From: Selenomonadales bacterium OttesenSCG-928-I06
GTDB taxonomy: Bacteria; Bacillota; Negativicutes; Sporomusales; Sporomusaceae
Direction of reading: 5' to 3'
Assembly (NCBI GenBank): GCA_030266395.1
Contig: JAJDHX010000002.1
Location: forward strand, 1-64,000
DNA length: 64,000 nt
Shown in pieces: positions 35,019 to 43,892 of the stretch. The translations under genes and the position numbers were made by a program. Under the pieces are notes generated by a model. It saw only the letters and a list, made by a program, of their open reading frames with translations. It had not been told where the DNA came from and did no database searches. Within the stretch, counting starts at the first letter, position 1; every line of letters begins with the position of its first letter.

Positions 35019-35050
35019 TAAATCACCTCAATTTCAACTGTTACACTTCT

Positions 35051-35416
35051 GTTACGTTAAGTAAAACACCGTTCAACCTTTATTTTATCTGACTTCATGA
35101 TTAATTTTTTACTGTTACGTTAAATTCTCTCTATTCTCCCCTACTTTTTCCTATACGTGTACACATACATATAAAGAATAATAAAAGAAGTGTAACAGCG
35201 TAACAGAACACTTATGAATATAGAGTTTCATTGAATTTAATCATGTTACGCTAGATTCATTTTTAGCGTAACTGAGCGTAACATAGCGTAACACCTAATT
35301 TTTACCAAATATTGTTTTTGTTACGCTTAAGTTACGTTTAAAATTTCTTTAACGTAACATTCACTGTTCCGCACGTTTATTGACTCTCTCTAACCTTCTT
35401 GTTACGCTGTTACGCT
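35051..35416. repeat. Iteron-like array of GTTACG/CGTAAC, candidate replication origin
   Basis: At least 12 copies of GTTACG/CGTAAC in ~366 bp, including three AGCGTAAC copies exactly 10 bp apart (35265, 35275, 35285). Confidence 0.7.
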
Positions 35417-35432
35417 TAAATGATTAATTTTA

Positions 35433-37385
35433 TTATTTTATGAAATGTCTTTTTAATTTCCCGTTTTCTGATCTTTTAGGTACACTTTCAAAGTCAAATT
35501 TTTTACAAATATCCCTCGAAAAATTTCTTTGTTCAGGTATATTTTTAATATTATTTTGCTCACACCAAATTTTAAATTCAGTAAAATGATCATTTATTGG
35601 TTTGTTTTGAAGCTCTTCAACAGATATTTCAGTATCTAAAACCCACTGCAAAGGATAAGTATTTTCCATTTGATATAACTCTAGTGCCTTTTTGACCTTC
35701 TCAGATTCGGTAAATTTACCTTGTTTCATTAACCTTTTATAACCTCTAATAGCAATGTTAAGTACATAAGACAAAGCTTTGTCTGTAGTAACTTCATCAT
35801 CAATATTAGGGTTAAAATCCTCATCCTGAGCACTAAAAACAGCATTTAAAGGGACAAGTATTAATGTTCTATAAAAACCATGGGATTTGTCTGAAACATG
35901 AGGTATTTTATTAGTAGAAAAGATTAATTTAGCATAGTTTATTAATGTAAATGGATCTTTATTTTTTCGCTCTACTGTTACCGCTTCACCACGAGACAAA
36001 CTTTTCAGTTTACTTGAATCTTTTATATGAGTATGAGGAATGTCATCACCGATATTGACTATTTTATGTTCTAATTCTGCTGTTTTAAATTTATCTTCAA
36101 GATCTTTGATAGATAGTGTAGAATAATTGTTTAAACCTGTAAAATGTCTTATTAGGCGCAAGATTGTACTTTTACCATTAGATCCTTCACCAAATAGTAT
36201 AAAAAGTTTCTGAAAGCGATTGTTTTTAATTAAAATGTACCCTAACATTTCCTCAAAAAGATTAATTAAAGCTCTATCATAACGAAACACTTTCTGAATC
36301 ATTTTATCGACTGACTCATGATATATTTTAGGATCATATGAAGCGTTTACTTGTTGAAAGTCAATTACTTCTGAGGAGTGAGAAAGAAGTTTCATGTTTT
36401 TAAGATCCAATCTACCATTTTTAAGGTTAATAATATACTCGTGTTTTTCAGGTTCACGAATATAAGAGTTTATTCTAATCCAGTCCATGACTTCATTTCT
36501 AGCTGTTATTTTTGAAGTAGGGTACAGTTCGATTATTTTCTTTAAAATCTCACTCTCACCAATGACATAAGTACCATCTTTGTAAATGTAAATTTGTTTC
36601 TTATATGAAACTATCTTCATTTCTTTCATGAGATACTCGCCCATGATGTTATGTTTAAAAACGTTCTGACCTTTTTCATTGACTTCAAACCAAGGCGTCA
36701 TGAGCTCTTGATTTTCAACGTCCGGATAAGCTTCTTCACGGCTCAATAATTTTAGCTCGCTTTTAGGTAAAGGTTCATCGAATATATAATTGTTAATTAG
36801 TCTTAATATTTCTATTGCTTCATTGTAGTTAAAGTCTCTTTTTGCTAGATCTATTTGATATTCATAAAGAGCTTGGTTACGTCCATCACCTTCACCCATA
36901 CCGCAGAATTTCCAACGATTCTGTCTTAGAGGTCTAAGCCATTTTGGTAGTTCTTCGAGTTGATCCCAGGGATCGTTTTTAATCCACTCACGCCATACAC
37001 CGTTAAGTTTTATAGCTACTTGAGATTGTTTTCCCCAGCTTCGATAATCTACAGACAACCCAATAGCAGTATTACTTTTGATTTGATTTTTGAGGGGTTC
37101 AGTAGTTTTAAACCAGAAATGACGACCTTTTGTAGTTTGCATTATTCTACATTTAATTTTTTCTTTGTTGATTAGTTCAGTTAGTTTTTCAGCTTGAACC
37201 ATATCATCTATATCAATAACGACGAAGGGTTCTTCTATTTTTAAGCCCAGATTGGGGAAGTTTTTTACTTCATCAAAATAATAAGTATCCCAAGCTATAG
37301 GGGCTTTTGTAGGTTTTAATTTTAAGAAGTTATCTAAATTAGTAATTCTAGAATTGATTGTAGTTGTTTCAAGCTCGTCACCCAA
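35433..37385 (-). CDS. D5/P4-type primase-helicase
   Basis: LFGEGSNGKSTILRLIRHFTGLNNYSTL Walker A; N-terminal primase/polymerase-like VVIDIDD; TTG start. Confidence 0.92.
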   Translation of the reverse strand: MGDELETTTINSRITNLDNFLKLKPTKAPIAWDTYYFDEVKNFPNLGLKIEEPFVVIDIDDMVQAEKLTELINKEKIKCRIMQTTKGRHFWFKTTEPLKNQIKSNTAIGLSVDYRSWGKQSQVAIKLNGVWREWIKNDPWDQLEELPKWLRPLRQNRWKFCGMGEGDGRNQALYEYQIDLAKRDFNYNEAIEILRLINNYIFDEPLPKSELKLLSREEAYPDVENQELMTPWFEVNEKGQNVFKHNIMGEYLMKEMKIVSYKKQIYIYKDGTYVIGESEILKKIIELYPTSKITARNEVMDWIRINSYIREPEKHEYIINLKNGRLDLKNMKLLSHSSEVIDFQQVNASYDPKIYHESVDKMIQKVFRYDRALINLFEEMLGYILIKNNRFQKLFILFGEGSNGKSTILRLIRHFTGLNNYSTLSIKDLEDKFKTAELEHKIVNIGDDIPHTHIKDSSKLKSLSRGEAVTVERKNKDPFTLINYAKLIFSTNKIPHVSDKSHGFYRTLILVPLNAVFSAQDEDFNPNIDDEVTTDKALSYVLNIAIRGYKRLMKQGKFTESEKVKKALELYQMENTYPLQWVLDTEISVEELQNKPINDHFTEFKIWCEQNNIKNIPEQRNFSRDICKKFDFESVPKRSENGKLKRHFIK

Positions 37386-37618
37386 ATACCAACACCCCCT
37401 GAAGCTTCTATTTCTCTTAAATGTTTATACTGTAAAGGGGTGGGTTCTTCCCCTTCTATCTTCAGTTCACAAGCTACAAATCTACCATTCCAGCAAATGA
37501 TGAGGTCGGGGCGCCCTCGACGTTCGAAGGCGTTCCCCCATGTATTTAAATAATAGACCCCTGTTTCATCTAACCAGTTAGTGATTTCTTTTTGTATCGA
37601 GTTTTCTCGCTTGCTCAT
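37334..37618 (-). CDS. VRR-NUC domain nuclease
   Basis: NAFERRGRPDLIICWNGRFVACELKIEGEEPTPLQ. Confidence 0.88.
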   Translation of the reverse strand: MSKRENSIQKEITNWLDETGVYYLNTWGNAFERRGRPDLIICWNGRFVACELKIEGEEPTPLQYKHLREIEASGGVGIWVTSLKQLQSILELLI

Positions 37619-38088
37619 GCTTTCTTTTTAGCTGCTAATCTATCTTTAAATGACATTTTTTTAGGCTCTTCAGGAGCTTCTTTTTTTGTCTCTTTTTTGC
37701 TTGATTTTTTCTTCTCAAATCCGTCTGCAGAATCGATGTATTTTTTAATGTTTGCAAAAGTACCGCCTTTGGATCCTTCTCTGTGTTCTATTTCTGCTAA
37801 TATGTAGCAATCTGGAAAATCCTCATAATCAATCTCATCTAAAGTCTGATCTTGTAGGGCTAGTCTGCCTAGTTTCGTATATATCCAATCTGCCGTTTCG
37901 TTTGGTTCATCGTCATTGTTAGTGAACATGAAATTCTCTTTCAGTGTGTTACCGTCTACGTCTTCATATATAACTACTAACTTATCAAATTCCTCATAGT
38001 TAGAATCGTCAACCTCTTTAATTCTTAATACTTGCTCACCAGCTGGAACTAGAGTAAATTTACCTTCAACTGCTTTTCTTATTGCCAT
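37615..38088 (-). CDS. DUF669-like/ssDNA-binding-type protein
   Basis: GEQVLRIKEVD...RLALQDQTLDEIDYEDFPDCYILAEIEHREG, Lys-rich tail; recombination cluster. Confidence 0.55.
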   Translation of the reverse strand: MAIRKAVEGKFTLVPAGEQVLRIKEVDDSNYEEFDKLVVIYEDVDGNTLKENFMFTNNDDEPNETADWIYTKLGRLALQDQTLDEIDYEDFPDCYILAEIEHREGSKGGTFANIKKYIDSADGFEKKKSSKKETKKEAPEEPKKMSFKDRLAAKKKA

Positions 38089-38090
38089 TA

Positions 38091-39158
38091 TTAAATAGCC
38101 TCCTTAATTTTATTTACTAATTTTACTGTTGGTGTTGTTTTTAAGTAATTTTGATATAATTCAGGATGATCGACTTGAAATGATTTACTATCAAATCCTC
38201 CATTTTCTAAGCGGACTTCCCATTCATATAAAACGCCTTCAACATTGATTTTTTTATCAGTACTTTTCATTTGAGATCTGAGTTCTTTTTTCAATTCTTC
38301 TTTTAGTTTTTTTAGTTTGTCTTCGGTTTCTTTACTTGCTTCTTTCTGGTTATCTAATTCAGCTTGTAAAGGCTCGATAGCTTTTAATAAAGAATTAATT
38401 GGATCCTCTTTACTTACTTCGACTTTTTGAGTTCTAATCACATCAAGTATTTTCTTATCTTTCTTTTTATCAAATTTGGGAGATATCCCAGTCACTATAT
38501 GTTTTTCATGCCAATTTAAAACTTGTTCTATATGACGTTCAAAATTAGGGTACTCTTGCTCAAGTGAGTAAGATAATACAAAAGTGTTTTCGGTGTTTGG
38601 GGTAAAGTTTTCAGGCGCTGCATAATCTTTGTCTTCTAAGATCGTAAGTACTAGACTGAAATTATCTATTTTATCAAGCCAAGCATATAAAGCGGCTTGA
38701 ATTTTATAATAGAATGGAGCATTTAAAACACCGTTTTTATACCAATCTTCCGCTCTTTTAGTGGTTTTTAATTCGTATATTCTGTTAGGTATGCGACAAT
38801 CCCACATACCACCTAAAATAGGCTCATTGTGATAATGGTCATATCTTAATTGCTGTACTGTTTTACCAAACCACTCGTCAGGAGTTTTGATTTTGTTTTT
38901 ACCAAAGAAATAACGCTTATCAAGATATTCAATAATTTTAGGTTCAATGATTTTGCCAGCTTTTGTGTAAATATTGTCCTCGAATGGTTCTTTATAAAAT
39001 CCAGTCATATCACACCATACTTCAAAAGGCGTTGACCATGGGTTTAGCTCTAGTATTGCTGCTAAACGTGTACCTGTTATTTTTTTAGGTTTCTTAAGTG
39101 GGTCTTTTAAGACAATACAGTCATTTACAATCTCGAAATTAGGCAGCGTCATTGTCAT
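38091..39158 (-). CDS. YqaJ-like viral recombinase/exonuclease
   Basis: ITGTRLAAILELNPWSTPFEVWCDMTG...GGMWDCRIPNRIYELKTTKRAEDW...IQAALYAWL. Confidence 0.85.
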   Translation of the reverse strand: MTMTLPNFEIVNDCIVLKDPLKKPKKITGTRLAAILELNPWSTPFEVWCDMTGFYKEPFEDNIYTKAGKIIEPKIIEYLDKRYFFGKNKIKTPDEWFGKTVQQLRYDHYHNEPILGGMWDCRIPNRIYELKTTKRAEDWYKNGVLNAPFYYKIQAALYAWLDKIDNFSLVLTILEDKDYAAPENFTPNTENTFVLSYSLEQEYPNFERHIEQVLNWHEKHIVTGISPKFDKKKDKKILDVIRTQKVEVSKEDPINSLLKAIEPLQAELDNQKEASKETEDKLKKLKEELKKELRSQMKSTDKKINVEGVLYEWEVRLENGGFDSKSFQVDHPELYQNYLKTTPTVKLVNKIKEAI

Positions 39159-39819
39159 CTATTAACTCTCCTAACGCTTCAATTATTTCTTCTGCTTGTT
39201 CTTTGGTTAACTTCTTCTTAAGTTCTTTTCTAATTTCTTCAGCTGCTTCATTTTCCCCAGCTTCTTCAAGCATATCAAGACCCATATAGATAGATTCTAA
39301 TTGTTCCTCTGTAGCTGGTTCTTTTTTAGTCTTTTTAATTTCTTGTTTAACTTCTTCTCGTGCTTCTGGACTCGTGTATTTTGGCTTAATGTCTTCTTCG
39401 TCGTTTTCCGGATCCATATTTTCAGCAACTAAGAAATTATTGGCTACGAAGTATTTAAAAGCACCTGTAGCAGCTTTATATATTCCTTTATCGCCCATGT
39501 CTGCGCCCATTCCAGAATTAGTGTAGATTTCTGATTCCCCTGTTTCGGGGTCTTTGATTAAATATTCATATTTGACTTTAACCATGTTCATTTTGTCTGA
39601 GATAGAACCTAAGAATTCTGCTTCTAACTCATTACATTTAAAATCTAATCCCGCTTCAGATAATGCTTTTTTGAAGTTGTTTTTGTATTGAGACTCAGGA
39701 ATATATTTGTAACCTTGATTTTTGTTTTTACCTGTTTTTTCCCATTCACATTTATTTAAAACATCTCTTAACATCATTAATTTTTCATTCAAACCACTAA
39801 CTTTTTTTGCTGTTGCCAT
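39139..39819 (-). CDS. Possible free ERF annealing protein from internal start
   Basis: AAAAAGGAGAGAAAAAAGAAAATG in frame at 39819 (MATAKKVSGLNEKLMMLRDVLNKC...). Confidence 0.5.
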   Translation of the reverse strand: MATAKKVSGLNEKLMMLRDVLNKCEWEKTGKNKNQGYKYIPESQYKNNFKKALSEAGLDFKCNELEAEFLGSISDKMNMVKVKYEYLIKDPETGESEIYTNSGMGADMGDKGIYKAATGAFKYFVANNFLVAENMDPENDEEDIKPKYTSPEAREEVKQEIKKTKKEPATEEQLESIYMGLDMLEEAGENEAAEEIRKELKKKLTKEQAEEIIEALGELIDDNDAA

Positions 39820-41631
39820 TTTCTTTTTTCTCTCCTTTTTAACTTTTTCAGGTTTAATACCTAAATAGTCATTAATTCTTTTTTGTGCTAAATCTATATA
39901 CCATTGACGATCTAGTCTTAATGTTTGTGGATCTTCTATGTCCGCTGGACTATAATTTATGATTTTGCATTTTTCAGGTAAATTTGCTATTTTGTCTTTT
40001 CTGTCTTGTTCAATTTTTACTTTTTTAAGTGTGCCATAAAAATCATCTTCAGTTGCAAAAACTCTATTGACATTTTGTACTTGAATCAAATTTCTACCAC
40101 GTTCCCATTCAACATAATCATAAGTACTTCCAGCTTTACAAATAATTTGGAATTTTTCTAATTCAGAACAATCATTAATAGTTAATTCTGGTGTTGTACC
40201 ATAGAGGAAGTAATTTACTATAGCTTCTTGAACAATTATTAGACTGTTAGTCTGAAAATCTCCACCATGATAATTAGTAACATAAGCACCTTTAACTTCA
40301 ACCTTGCCATAAGCGTTTAATAAAATATAATTGTTGACATCTTTCTGAACTATTTTTTTTACTTTTTCCCAACCCATTTGGAAGTTAGTACGCTCTTCCC
40401 ATGATTTAATTATCGTTCTAATTCTTTCTTCTCTCGAAGATTCAAACCCAATTATTAGTCCGTCTGTATTGGATTGTATAAGCTTAAAAGAATCAACATA
40501 TTCAAGTTTTTCAATGAGATCCACCAGATAAAGTTGACCACTTATACACACATGGTTAGCCATTTTGGGATCATATAAATTATTAAACTTCTCTTTCATG
40601 GCTCCATAGGTGCTGTTTAAGATTAGTTTTAATGCGTCTGCTGTAGTTTTATCACCTGAATTTTTAGCTTCAATTCTTTTGTTAAAAACTTCTTTATATG
40701 CTTCCGGATCCGGAACACTTCTACTTAAATATCCATTTTGAATCATGAGCGAAGGATAATAGCTTGTGACATCAATATGAACGATTTTAAAGTCTTTTGT
40801 GCTCTCAGCCTGGTAATGTTTAATTGCCCCGTGAAGTCCTCCCCAGGCTAAGATATGAGGTACTCCTGCAATGTCTGTCTCAAGTTTCTTTTTATAATCA
40901 ACTTCTTTATAAAACTCTAAAATGTGAGTGTAATTGTTAATTTTTAAGTTGTCAGGAAACTCATAGACAAACTCATCATCATATTTTTTCTTCTTAGCTT
41001 TGAGATATTTTGAAGTTAGTTTGGGATTGGTAAGTTTCAAACTTTCTTCTAAAGAAATACCTCCCATTTCACCAACTGCAATTTTATTTTTTAAATAACT
41101 CATTCTTTTTTTAAGGAGTTCGCCAGCAGCTCGCACATCATACATACAGTAATTAATGGATTCTTTTAATTCTGCTTCTGTAAGTGGTCTATCAATATCA
41201 AATGAAATTTTACTTTCCTCTATACTTAAACCTAAGTTACCTTCAATTTCTTTAAGTCTTAAGAATACTTGAGTACCTAAGTCATCCATTAAGTCTACTT
41301 GTGAGTAAAGTAATTTTTCCCAAATGTTTTTAATAAGCGGATGTTCCCAACCTTGTTGACCTGATTTTATTATCCAGTCGTTTGCTTCTTTAACTTTCTC
41401 AGGTTCTTCACCATAATAGATAATAGTTTTCAGTATCCATTGATCATAATTTTTATTGTTATACCCAGCCAAAATCATTTTTTCATCATTTAAAAAAGCT
41501 CTTAATTCAGATAGGTTTTTGACTGTGTAAGATTTCATTTCGAAGTCATGTTCTGTTATCCATTTACCTATTACGACTATCCAATCATGTGCGAAAACTT
41601 CAATATCATACAGCCATATTTTGTTTAGTAT
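39139..41631 (-). CDS. Family-B DNA polymerase fused to C-terminal ERF single-strand annealing domain; probable ATA start at 41631
   Basis: ExoI LYDIEVF lies upstream of supplied ORF; PolB motifs DVTSYYPSL, LILNSTYGAM, SNTDGL; ERF segment GMGADMGDKGIYKAATGAFKYFVANNFLV. Confidence 0.88.
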   Translation of the reverse strand: MLNKIWLYDIEVFAHDWIVVIGKWITEHDFEMKSYTVKNLSELRAFLNDEKMILAGYNNKNYDQWILKTIIYYGEEPEKVKEANDWIIKSGQQGWEHPLIKNIWEKLLYSQVDLMDDLGTQVFLRLKEIEGNLGLSIEESKISFDIDRPLTEAELKESINYCMYDVRAAGELLKKRMSYLKNKIAVGEMGGISLEESLKLTNPKLTSKYLKAKKKKYDDEFVYEFPDNLKINNYTHILEFYKEVDYKKKLETDIAGVPHILAWGGLHGAIKHYQAESTKDFKIVHIDVTSYYPSLMIQNGYLSRSVPDPEAYKEVFNKRIEAKNSGDKTTADALKLILNSTYGAMKEKFNNLYDPKMANHVCISGQLYLVDLIEKLEYVDSFKLIQSNTDGLIIGFESSREERIRTIIKSWEERTNFQMGWEKVKKIVQKDVNNYILLNAYGKVEVKGAYVTNYHGGDFQTNSLIIVQEAIVNYFLYGTTPELTINDCSELEKFQIICKAGSTYDYVEWERGRNLIQVQNVNRVFATEDDFYGTLKKVKIEQDRKDKIANLPEKCKIINYSPADIEDPQTLRLDRQWYIDLAQKRINDYLGIKPEKVKKERKKKMATAKKVSGLNEKLMMLRDVLNKCEWEKTGKNKNQGYKYIPESQYKNNFKKALSEAGLDFKCNELEAEFLGSISDKMNMVKVKYEYLIKDPETGESEIYTNSGMGADMGDKGIYKAATGAFKYFVANNFLVAENMDPENDEEDIKPKYTSPEAREEVKQEIKKTKKEPATEEQLESIYMGLDMLEEAGENEAAEEIRKELKKKLTKEQAEEIIEALGELIDDNDAA

Positions 41632-43017
41632 TTACCCCACCTCCTTACGTTTTTCTAGTTCTTTGTCAATCCGCAAAATAACATTTTCTAATTGTTTTCC
41701 AGTAAGTGATTTATGGTCTGGGAAAAATACTCTTCCTTCTTCTTTAAGTAAACTCATAACTTCAGTTTCGTTAAAGTCTCGATGTTTCATTAATGCGTCC
41801 CATATTTTCTTTTCCACTGTTTTTTCAGTTTCAAATAAAATGTAACTGCATTTTTGTTTTTGTCCTATCCTGTGAATCCTATCGCATGCCTGTTCGAATA
41901 TCTGACTACTTAAAGTAGGCTCATAAAAAATAATTGTACTGGCAGCATATAGATTAATTCCGGCGTTGGCAGTACGATACTGACAAATAATGACTTGAAT
42001 GCCTTTTTCGTTTTGGAACTGCTGCCAAATGCTTTTATCTTTTTGATTACCATCTAAAACTACATATTTTCGTTTGAGCTTTTTAACTACAGTTTCAATA
42101 TCTTTAATTGATTGTTTGAATTCTGCAAATATTACTAATTTGTCATTCCAATTCTCTAAGAAGTCTTTTAAAATTGTAGGTTTTTCACACTTTATTTTGT
42201 GTGCTTTACCGTCCGCATCTTTTAGATGACCAGAACATATTTGTCTTAATTTGACTAACCTTGATACCGCATTTTTAGCCTCTAAGTCCAATTCCTCAAT
42301 ATAGTTTTTAAGCATCTGTTTATACATAGCTTTTTCTTTTAGTTCTAGGTACTGTCTTTGAGGTGGTAATTTATCTGGCAAATCTAAACAATCTTCTTTT
42401 TTAACCGCATAAGCATGCGTATATATAATTTGTTTGAGTTCGTCTACGTTTTTATAGTAGCAAGGTTTAAAATATTCATTGAGAACGCAGTATTTCTTTT
42501 CAAATGCGGAGTATTTACCAAAAATACTAAAATGGAGAAAGCTGTATTGTGACCAAATTTCTTCCCAATGACTATTCCCTATGGGAGTGCCAGTTAAGAT
42601 GTATTTGTATTTAGCTGTTTTTGCACATTTTAAAAGAAATTTACTACGTCTAGATGTTCTGTTTTTTATATAGTGACTTTCGTCTAAAATGATACAGTCC
42701 CAATTTTTAAAGAACTCTTCACGTCGCCACACCATATCATAATTTATAATTGTCATATGTTTTAAAAGAATAGATCTAAAGAAAGGTTTGAATAGTTGTA
42801 TGTCATTAAACCATCCTTGAATTACTGGCTTGGGACAAACTACTAAACAATTTTTTATTTCACCTGACAAAAGTAGTTTTAATATGTGGGCTAGTGCACA
42901 CAATGTCTTCCCTGTCCCTTGCTCCATGAATAAAGCAAAAAAGAAATTATATCCCATACGTTCAATAGCTTTTTCTTGATGTTTGCCCGGAACTATCCCT
43001 TTAATAAAATAGTTCAT
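41632..43017 (-). CDS. SNF2-family DEAD/H helicase
   Basis: MEQGTGKTLCALAHIL Walker A, ILDESHYIKNRTSRRSK, QACDRIHRIGQKQKC. Confidence 0.93.
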   Translation of the reverse strand: MNYFIKGIVPGKHQEKAIERMGYNFFFALFMEQGTGKTLCALAHILKLLLSGEIKNCLVVCPKPVIQGWFNDIQLFKPFFRSILLKHMTIINYDMVWRREEFFKNWDCIILDESHYIKNRTSRRSKFLLKCAKTAKYKYILTGTPIGNSHWEEIWSQYSFLHFSIFGKYSAFEKKYCVLNEYFKPCYYKNVDELKQIIYTHAYAVKKEDCLDLPDKLPPQRQYLELKEKAMYKQMLKNYIEELDLEAKNAVSRLVKLRQICSGHLKDADGKAHKIKCEKPTILKDFLENWNDKLVIFAEFKQSIKDIETVVKKLKRKYVVLDGNQKDKSIWQQFQNEKGIQVIICQYRTANAGINLYAASTIIFYEPTLSSQIFEQACDRIHRIGQKQKCSYILFETEKTVEKKIWDALMKHRDFNETEVMSLLKEEGRVFFPDHKSLTGKQLENVILRIDKELEKRKEVG

Positions 43018-43892
43018 ATGTCTATAGCATCACGGAAACCAAGGAACACTGGGAATCGGGGTTTTTCTTTACTGCCAGTTGGGAAGTATTTATATTTAAC
43101 AAATGTGCCTAAAAACTCGTTTTGATTTTCCCAGATGTATTTTTTGGTCTCATCATTAAAACCGCTTCCAATTTCAAACTCCACACCACTTTTTAGATCT
43201 CTTACACTTAAAGCTCCTAGGGTGTCTTTACCTACTAGATTAGCCTTACAAGTACTTCTTTCTGTGTGCCCTAAAGCGTTTTTAGTGGGCTCATTTGCAT
43301 TGTGCATTTGCTCTACAAAGCCGAGTATTTGTGCTTCACTGTCTTCAAATCGTTTTAGCTTCATTAGATAAGCCTCTTTTAATGTACTTCTACCGAATTT
43401 GTATAGTCCGTTTGGGTCTCTGAGCATTACTCCTTCATAGCCTTCTTTTAGGTATTGAGTTTCAATTTGTTGAACTTCCTCTACATTATGGACCCATTTA
43501 TAAGGTAAAAAATTAATAGGTAGCCATTTTATCCTATCTGTAATGTATAAACACCTGTTTAAATAACCCAGATTCGGACATGTAAAATCATCAAATACCC
43601 AAAAAGTGAAATTTGGTTCTCCTTCGATAGTCATAACTCCACTGCCTGTACCTCTAAAACAAGTTGGATCGGTAGGGTCTCCTACGACAATTTCACCGTC
43701 AAAACCGTTATAAGCTGGATTACCTAATTTTCTTTGAACATATTTATTAGGGATAGGTTTTAAACTTCTGGAAAGTGCTACGCTGTCTTTAATTAGTACT
43801 CGTATACCGTCCAATTTTGGACTAGCAAGTAAAGGGAATTTTAATGTATTTATGTCTTTAATAGTAGCTGCTAACATTGGTTTAAAAGTCAT
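43014..43892 (-). CDS. ATP-dependent DNA ligase
   Basis: LLASPKLDGIRVLIK (KxDG), FDGEIVVGD, EGVMLRDPNGLYKFGRS. Confidence 0.93.
   Translation of the reverse strand: MTFKPMLAATIKDINTLKFPLLASPKLDGIRVLIKDSVALSRSLKPIPNKYVQRKLGNPAYNGFDGEIVVGDPTDPTCFRGTGSGVMTIEGEPNFTFWVFDDFTCPNLGYLNRCLYITDRIKWLPINFLPYKWVHNVEEVQQIETQYLKEGYEGVMLRDPNGLYKFGRSTLKEAYLMKLKRFEDSEAQILGFVEQMHNANEPTKNALGHTERSTCKANLVGKDTLGALSVRDLKSGVEFEIGSGFNDETKKYIWENQNEFLGTFVKYKYFPTGSKEKPRFPVFLGFRDAIDI

Follow-up and report, generated by a model that had tools for sequence, protein, structure and literature searches.

A family-B DNA polymerase joined to an ERF annealing protein in a prophage gene with a predicted internal start

The gene described here joins a family-B DNA polymerase (PolB) to an ERF single-strand annealing protein in one open frame, and very probably yields two products, the PolB-ERF fusion and a free ERF protein that would start at the linker between the two domains. 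It lies at positions 39139-41631 of a 64,000-nucleotide stretch of DNA, hereafter the window, from Selenomonadales bacterium OttesenSCG-928-I06, on the minus strand, like every gene, gene part and translation signal of the window described below. The source is an incomplete metagenome-assembled genome (MAG) of 1.33 Mb in 103 contigs, 72% complete. The window carries a prophage, and PolB-ERF is one of the replication-recombination genes of that prophage. For most phages it is unclear how an annealing protein hands over to a polymerase; here both are on one polypeptide, and the frame that joins them is kept across distant phages.

The fused gene and its domains

The minus-strand translation from 41631 to 39139 is free of stops over 830 residues and ends at the stop codon 39141-39139, and the plus strand of the same interval contains many stops. 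A first-pass annotation of this DNA had described a PolB running into an ERF domain in one open frame at these positions, which is what the translation gives; it had named no strand, and the frame proves to be on the minus strand. That annotation was right about the fusion and its domains. It overlooked the conserved Shine-Dalgarno sequence and start codon in the linker, the probable initiation of the polymerase at a codon other than ATG, the downstream SSB-like gene and the standing of the fusion as a hallmark of one clade.

The polymerase part comprises residues 1-595 (39847-41631). The residues of Exo I (D9/E11), Exo II (N58/D63) and Exo III (Y161/D165), and those of polymerase motifs A (DVTSYYPS, D287), B (KLILNSTYG, K335/N339/YG) and C (SNTDG, D390), are invariant across nine aligned sequences. 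In motif C, NTDG, an asparagine replaces the first aspartate of a DTD-like motif, likewise in all aligned relatives. PHROG 1252 (phage DNA polymerase) matches the 799-residue open reading frame that begins at the first ATG with an E-value of 2.7e-141, and a polymerase profile matches E. coli Pol II at 1.1e-5. A Foldseek search with the model found archaeal family-B polymerases (E 1.8e-14, with a template modelling score of only about 0.4 over the whole model). On this evidence the N-terminal part is, as had been claimed, a family-B polymerase with exonuclease and polymerase motifs; the set is complete, and catalytic activity is predicted. The Pfam search that the first-pass annotation had proposed matched the ERF part; no Pfam DNA_pol_B model scored against the product, and the polymerase was recognised through PHROG 1252 and Foldseek.

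The full-length AlphaFold2 model has two folded parts, a disordered linker and a helical tail. The basic linker, KPEKVKKERKKKM..., consists of residues 591-613 (39793-39861) and is predicted to be disordered, its predicted local distance difference test score being below 50 at residues 596-610. The ERF single-strand annealing core follows at residues 614-736 (39424-39792), with a predicted beta-beta-beta-alpha core. It is matched by Pfam PF04404 at 9.5e-7, with 29.4-31.9 bits against a cut-off of 25, and PHROG 155 (Erf-like) matches the same 799-residue frame as PHROG 1252, at 2.1e-17. Models of viral ERF proteins match it structurally at 3e-8 to 2e-6, and PolB-ERF is the sole PF04404 match of the window genome. 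The ERF assignment made earlier is thereby upheld: the C-terminal domain is, by these matches, an ERF annealing protein, for which annealing and ring formation are predicted. The C-terminal helical tail (residues 755-830, 39142-39369), also anticipated in the first-pass annotation, is seen in the AlphaFold2 model and is conserved in the fusions.

The full-length product probably begins at a non-canonical codon. The frame has no ATG, GTG or TTG ahead of the Exo I motif. A Shine-Dalgarno sequence, AAGGAGG (41640-41646), gives the best anti-Shine-Dalgarno pairing near the N-terminus (-13.4 kcal/mol) and stands 8 nt upstream of an ATA codon (41629-41631), which comes directly after the stop codon of the SNF2 gene. 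The strength of this sequence, and the loss of the Exo I motif (DIE) that a start at the first ATG (41538; 799 residues) would entail, make ATA the likely start in the window. Initiation at 41538 was ruled out on the same grounds. The outer start codons of the relatives are CTG, TTG, GTG or ATG, with ATA in the window, and the PolB-ERF family may be characterised by weak outer starts.

Homologous fusions and the start within the linker

Homologous fusions were sought by scanning a PolB alignment against viral contigs (IMG/VR) and GTDB genomes, and then applying an ERF profile to the tails left free of polymerase. The alignment was required, as a scan of the viral contigs with the single window protein gave no matches. 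This survey for the same architecture, which had been suggested with the first-pass annotation, yielded 31 fused genes in addition to that of the window, each on a contig of its own, a count that includes a few near-identical pairs and one gene (L107) with an ERF-like tail that PHROG 155 picked out. The close group is 51-57% identical overall to the window fusion, and the divergent members L040 and L123 are 40% and 36% identical. Among the carriers are the cultured strains Paenibacillus alkalitolerans YIM B00362 (L101) and Adlercreutzia mucosicola (L107), as well as two MAGs, one from Clostridia and one labelled Deltaproteobacteria. That homologous fusions occur in so many contigs excludes chance and a missed stop, and shows that the fusion is real and no assembly error. 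The first-pass annotation had named as refuting evidence a set of homologues that are consistently two genes parted by a stop; the homologues do not show this, and only two of them are split, in Eggerthella phage EL753P1 and in the one-base variant L054.

In a PolB tree of 141 rows, the 25 fused rows and EL753P1 form one clade with a Shimodaira-Hasegawa-like approximate likelihood ratio test value of 99, and the other 115 rows fall outside it; the tree comes from a quick search without bootstrap, the EL753P1 branch is long and the root is arbitrary. As judged from this tree, the fusion is a hallmark of one PolB clade, and the simplest reading is a single fusion origin with later splitting.

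In the window, the linker contains a Shine-Dalgarno sequence, AAGGAG (39832-39837), followed by an in-frame ATG at codon 605 (39817-39819). This ATG ranks first among the 27 in-frame ATG, GTG and TTG codons and is the predicted start of a free ERF of 226 residues. All 26 fusions examined have an in-frame start codon with an upstream Shine-Dalgarno sequence where ERF begins. The codon is ATG in 24 of them, GTG in L040 and TTG in L084, so that a lost ATG has always been replaced by another valid start codon. Strong sites, of -8 kcal/mol or better, are present in 21 of 26 linkers and in 18 of 413 other 45-codon windows, with a Fisher p of about 9e-21 that is too optimistic because the rows are related and not independent. 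The best site of the gene falls in the linker in 16 of the 26 genes (ties counted), against about 1.2 expected. The peptides that spell the site vary (KKER, SRRK, TRRK, PEEG, KES, EKED), while the Shine-Dalgarno sequence and the start stay constant. In the close group, most genes use AGR for just 4-10% of their arginines, but at the linker AGG or AGA is present in most. It is the conservation of the start codon and the Shine-Dalgarno sequence at the linker that makes two proteins the most likely output of the gene.

A proposed coupling of annealing to synthesis and its rivals

We propose, from these features, that PolB-ERF and free ERF co-assemble. Initiation at the far 5' start would give a family-B polymerase permanently tailed with ERF, and the Shine-Dalgarno sequence and ATG in the linker would give ERF alone; a weak outer start would make less PolB-ERF and the internal start would keep up the supply of free ERF. 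ERF proteins assemble into rings of some eleven subunits, as the 11-mer rings of P22 Erf exemplify (PMC8034648), so a PolB-ERF chain could now and then take a place beside free ERF subunits in a mixed oligomer. The YqaJ exonuclease encoded downstream would resect DNA ends, the SSB-like protein would coat the resected strand, the ERF oligomer would anneal this strand to a complementary one and the tethered polymerase would extend the annealed 3' end. The outcome would be annealing-primed, recombination-dependent replication or break repair. This proposal as a whole, a two-product gene whose mixed ERF oligomers tether the polymerase to annealed DNA, seems to us fairly probable, and we hold the functional coupling of annealing to synthesis to be evenly balanced or slightly favoured. 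More tentatively, the idea might extend to a clade of tailed phages in which each polymerase carries an annealing subunit within mixed ERF oligomers. Annealed 3' ends would there be handed directly to the tethered polymerase in a recombination-coupled replisome, and the relative amounts of the two products would follow from the weakness of the outer start and the strength of the internal one.

Several observations weigh against the proposal. With ATA as the likely initiation codon of PolB-ERF, little of the long form may be made in the phage of the window. Synonymous shuffles supported selection on the Shine-Dalgarno sequence in only about half of the genes, with p up to 0.8 in some, where nearly any codon choice yields the sequence. 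The support from shuffling is limited because peptides of the KKE or EE type spell a Shine-Dalgarno sequence anyway, and the argument for the internal start rests on the comparison with other 45-codon windows and on the change of peptide at a constant site. The model of free ERF gave no match in the PDB at E of 0.001 or below, RAD52 included, so that search did not confirm that the ERF domain folds like RAD52. Furthermore, the fusion is not strictly required, since two members of the family are split. In EL753P1 the PolB and ERF-like genes are separated by TGA-GAA-ATG and are in the same frame. L054 (junction at L054:7780-7840) differs from the near-identical, fused L040 (L040:5640-5700) by one A in an A-run, which creates a GTGA stop-start overlap and splits the proteins; either form may be the original, and either may be a sequence error.

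The main rival is that free ERF is the functional product, translationally coupled to the polymerase, and that the stop between them was lost long ago, the polymerase tolerating an ERF tail. The strong internal start conserved in all fusions speaks for this explanation, and so do the split genes of EL753P1 and L054, which stand in unchanged order with the stop and start codons almost in contact, as is usual for coupled genes. Exchange of the ERF part also suits it. L023 and L024 are 93% identical in PolB and 96% in the tail, and only 61% in the ERF core; L031 and L036 behave like them, with 61% in the core against 89-93% in PolB in genes that are otherwise near-identical. These identities indicate that ERF cores are exchanged as cassettes within the fusion genes, and the deeper fusion members have a distinct ERF type. 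The reading frame is harder to reconcile with a tolerated tail. Between a conserved PolB anchor and the ERF start there are about ten linker lengths (five of them read by eye where the anchor pattern missed), all multiples of three and free of stops. If free ERF alone mattered, the frame could drift and frame shifts or returning stops would be free, and the frame that has been kept thus speaks for the fused product. Only one unfused row is left among the 26 deep rows of the clade. We consider passive read-through unlikely.

The ERF tail could instead be a DNA-binding processivity or loading domain for the polymerase, with annealing secondary. In its favour, single-stranded DNA binding and ring formation are known from proteins of the ERF type, the model shows a flexible linker, and none of the replication genes examined was recognised as a clamp gene. 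However, the YqaJ exonuclease and SSB-like genes downstream are of the kind that an annealing recombination module contains, the conserved start for free ERF would be superfluous, and cores exchanged between ERF types fit better with an independent annealing role, so that a processivity tail appears improbable. An artefact, in which a missed stop or an indel has fused two genes in the assembly, is extremely improbable: the window does come from an incomplete MAG, and the single A that distinguishes L040 from L054 means that one-base errors in the junction homopolymer could join or split the gene in an individual contig, but the fusion recurs in about 30 genes of different assemblies, those of the two cultured strains included, which rules it out for the family.

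Neighbouring genes and related systems

The end of the fusion gene is overlapped by a gene for a YqaJ/RecE-like exonuclease (38091-39158; Pfam YqaJ 1.6e-6, PHROG 434). Next comes a small protein that is probably SSB-like (37615-38088). The window protein itself has no match, and the assignment is based solely on its homologues, 6 of 19 of which match PHROG 378 SSB (best 8.8e-5). A VRR-NUC-type nuclease (37334-37618; PHROG 93 endonuclease, 2.7e-17) and a primase-helicase (35433-37385; D5_N/DUF5906 in Pfam, PHROG 864) follow. On the other side, the stop codon of an SNF2-family helicase gene (41632-43017; Pfam SNF2-rel_dom, 1.6e-21) abuts the polymerase start, and an ATP-dependent DNA ligase (43014-43892; Pfam DNA_ligase_OB_2 and DNA_ligase_A_M) lies beyond it. 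Apart from the SSB-like gene, these are the neighbours that the first-pass annotation had listed.

Comparison of loci separates two of these genes from the rest. The YqaJ gene follows the polymerase in 54 of 54 clade loci and turns up in 1 of the 146 PolB loci outside the clade, and the SSB-like gene is present in 50 of the 54 and in none of the 146, with some contigs counted twice among the 54. SNF2, VRR-NUC and primase-helicase genes are neighbours of fused and unfused polymerases alike. By gene order, then, the fusion is linked to a putative recombination module of exonuclease and SSB-like protein. In lambda Red (exo/beta) and RecE/RecT, too, the exonuclease gene stands beside the gene of the annealing protein and an SSB-like gene is nearby; in those systems, however, the annealing protein is a separate partner, while that of the window is covalently built into the polymerase. 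The T7 gene 4 primase-helicase is made in a long and a short form by internal initiation in the same frame. In the window, by contrast, the predicted short form would be an annealing protein that oligomerises, and the long form adds a polymerase to it.

The closest stand-alone polymerases are of the phrog_1252 type, as in Staphylococcus phage PI-Sepi-HH2 and Paenibacillus phage LincolnB. They are 39-41% identical and share the exonuclease, A, B and NTDG motifs, but they are about 565-590 residues long and end where the linker of the window begins; no ERF match is adjacent to them, and YqaJ is almost never nearby. Two polymerases of the unfused group (L243:6995-9442 and L245:6983-9418) carry a different, non-ERF C-terminal tail of about 246 residues and are possibly another polymerase fusion. 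The ERF core of PF04404 is common to P22 Erf and the window, although the usual ERF proteins stand alone and that of the window is joined to a polymerase. EL753P1, whose polymerase belongs to the same clade, has PolB, ERF-like and YqaJ genes (36-35-34) in the same order as the window, and a single stop codon parts the first two.

The top viral structure match in BFVD is A0A8S5V6E6 of Siphoviridae sp. ctmqu18, with 33% identity over 877 alignment columns, nearly the whole model. This protein of 1154 residues is annotated merely as 'DNA polymerase' and is probably another fused PolB-ERF, already deposited. Such proteins are then present in databases unrecognised, and standard gene calls would overlook the second product, so that counts of annealing proteins in phages of this kind are probably too low. 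Among the 50,697 phage records of INPHARED, no single-frame fusion was found at the sensitivity used, and the only match covering at least 80% of a query was EL753P1, which is split. The expectation in the first-pass annotation that the fusion had not been described agrees with our literature search, in which no paper describing a PolB-ERF fusion was found, subscription journals being mostly outside its reach. In the passages searched, a 2021 survey of annealing proteins in Firmicutes reports ERF genes that have ssb next to them, and contains no word beginning with 'fus' (PMC8093625). The PolB and ERF domains are each known, and the conserved fusion with its two-product design appears to be undescribed in the papers that could be searched. 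With both domains in one chain, the coupling of annealing to synthesis becomes directly testable in one purified protein, and tethered annealing-polymerase proteins could serve recombineering.

Just past the primase-helicase gene, the gap contains an iteron-like cluster (35038-35416). It holds 8 of the 9 matches to AGCGTAAC in the window, where 0.9 would be expected in all, together with TGTTACGTT variants. From its repeats, this cluster is a candidate replication origin.

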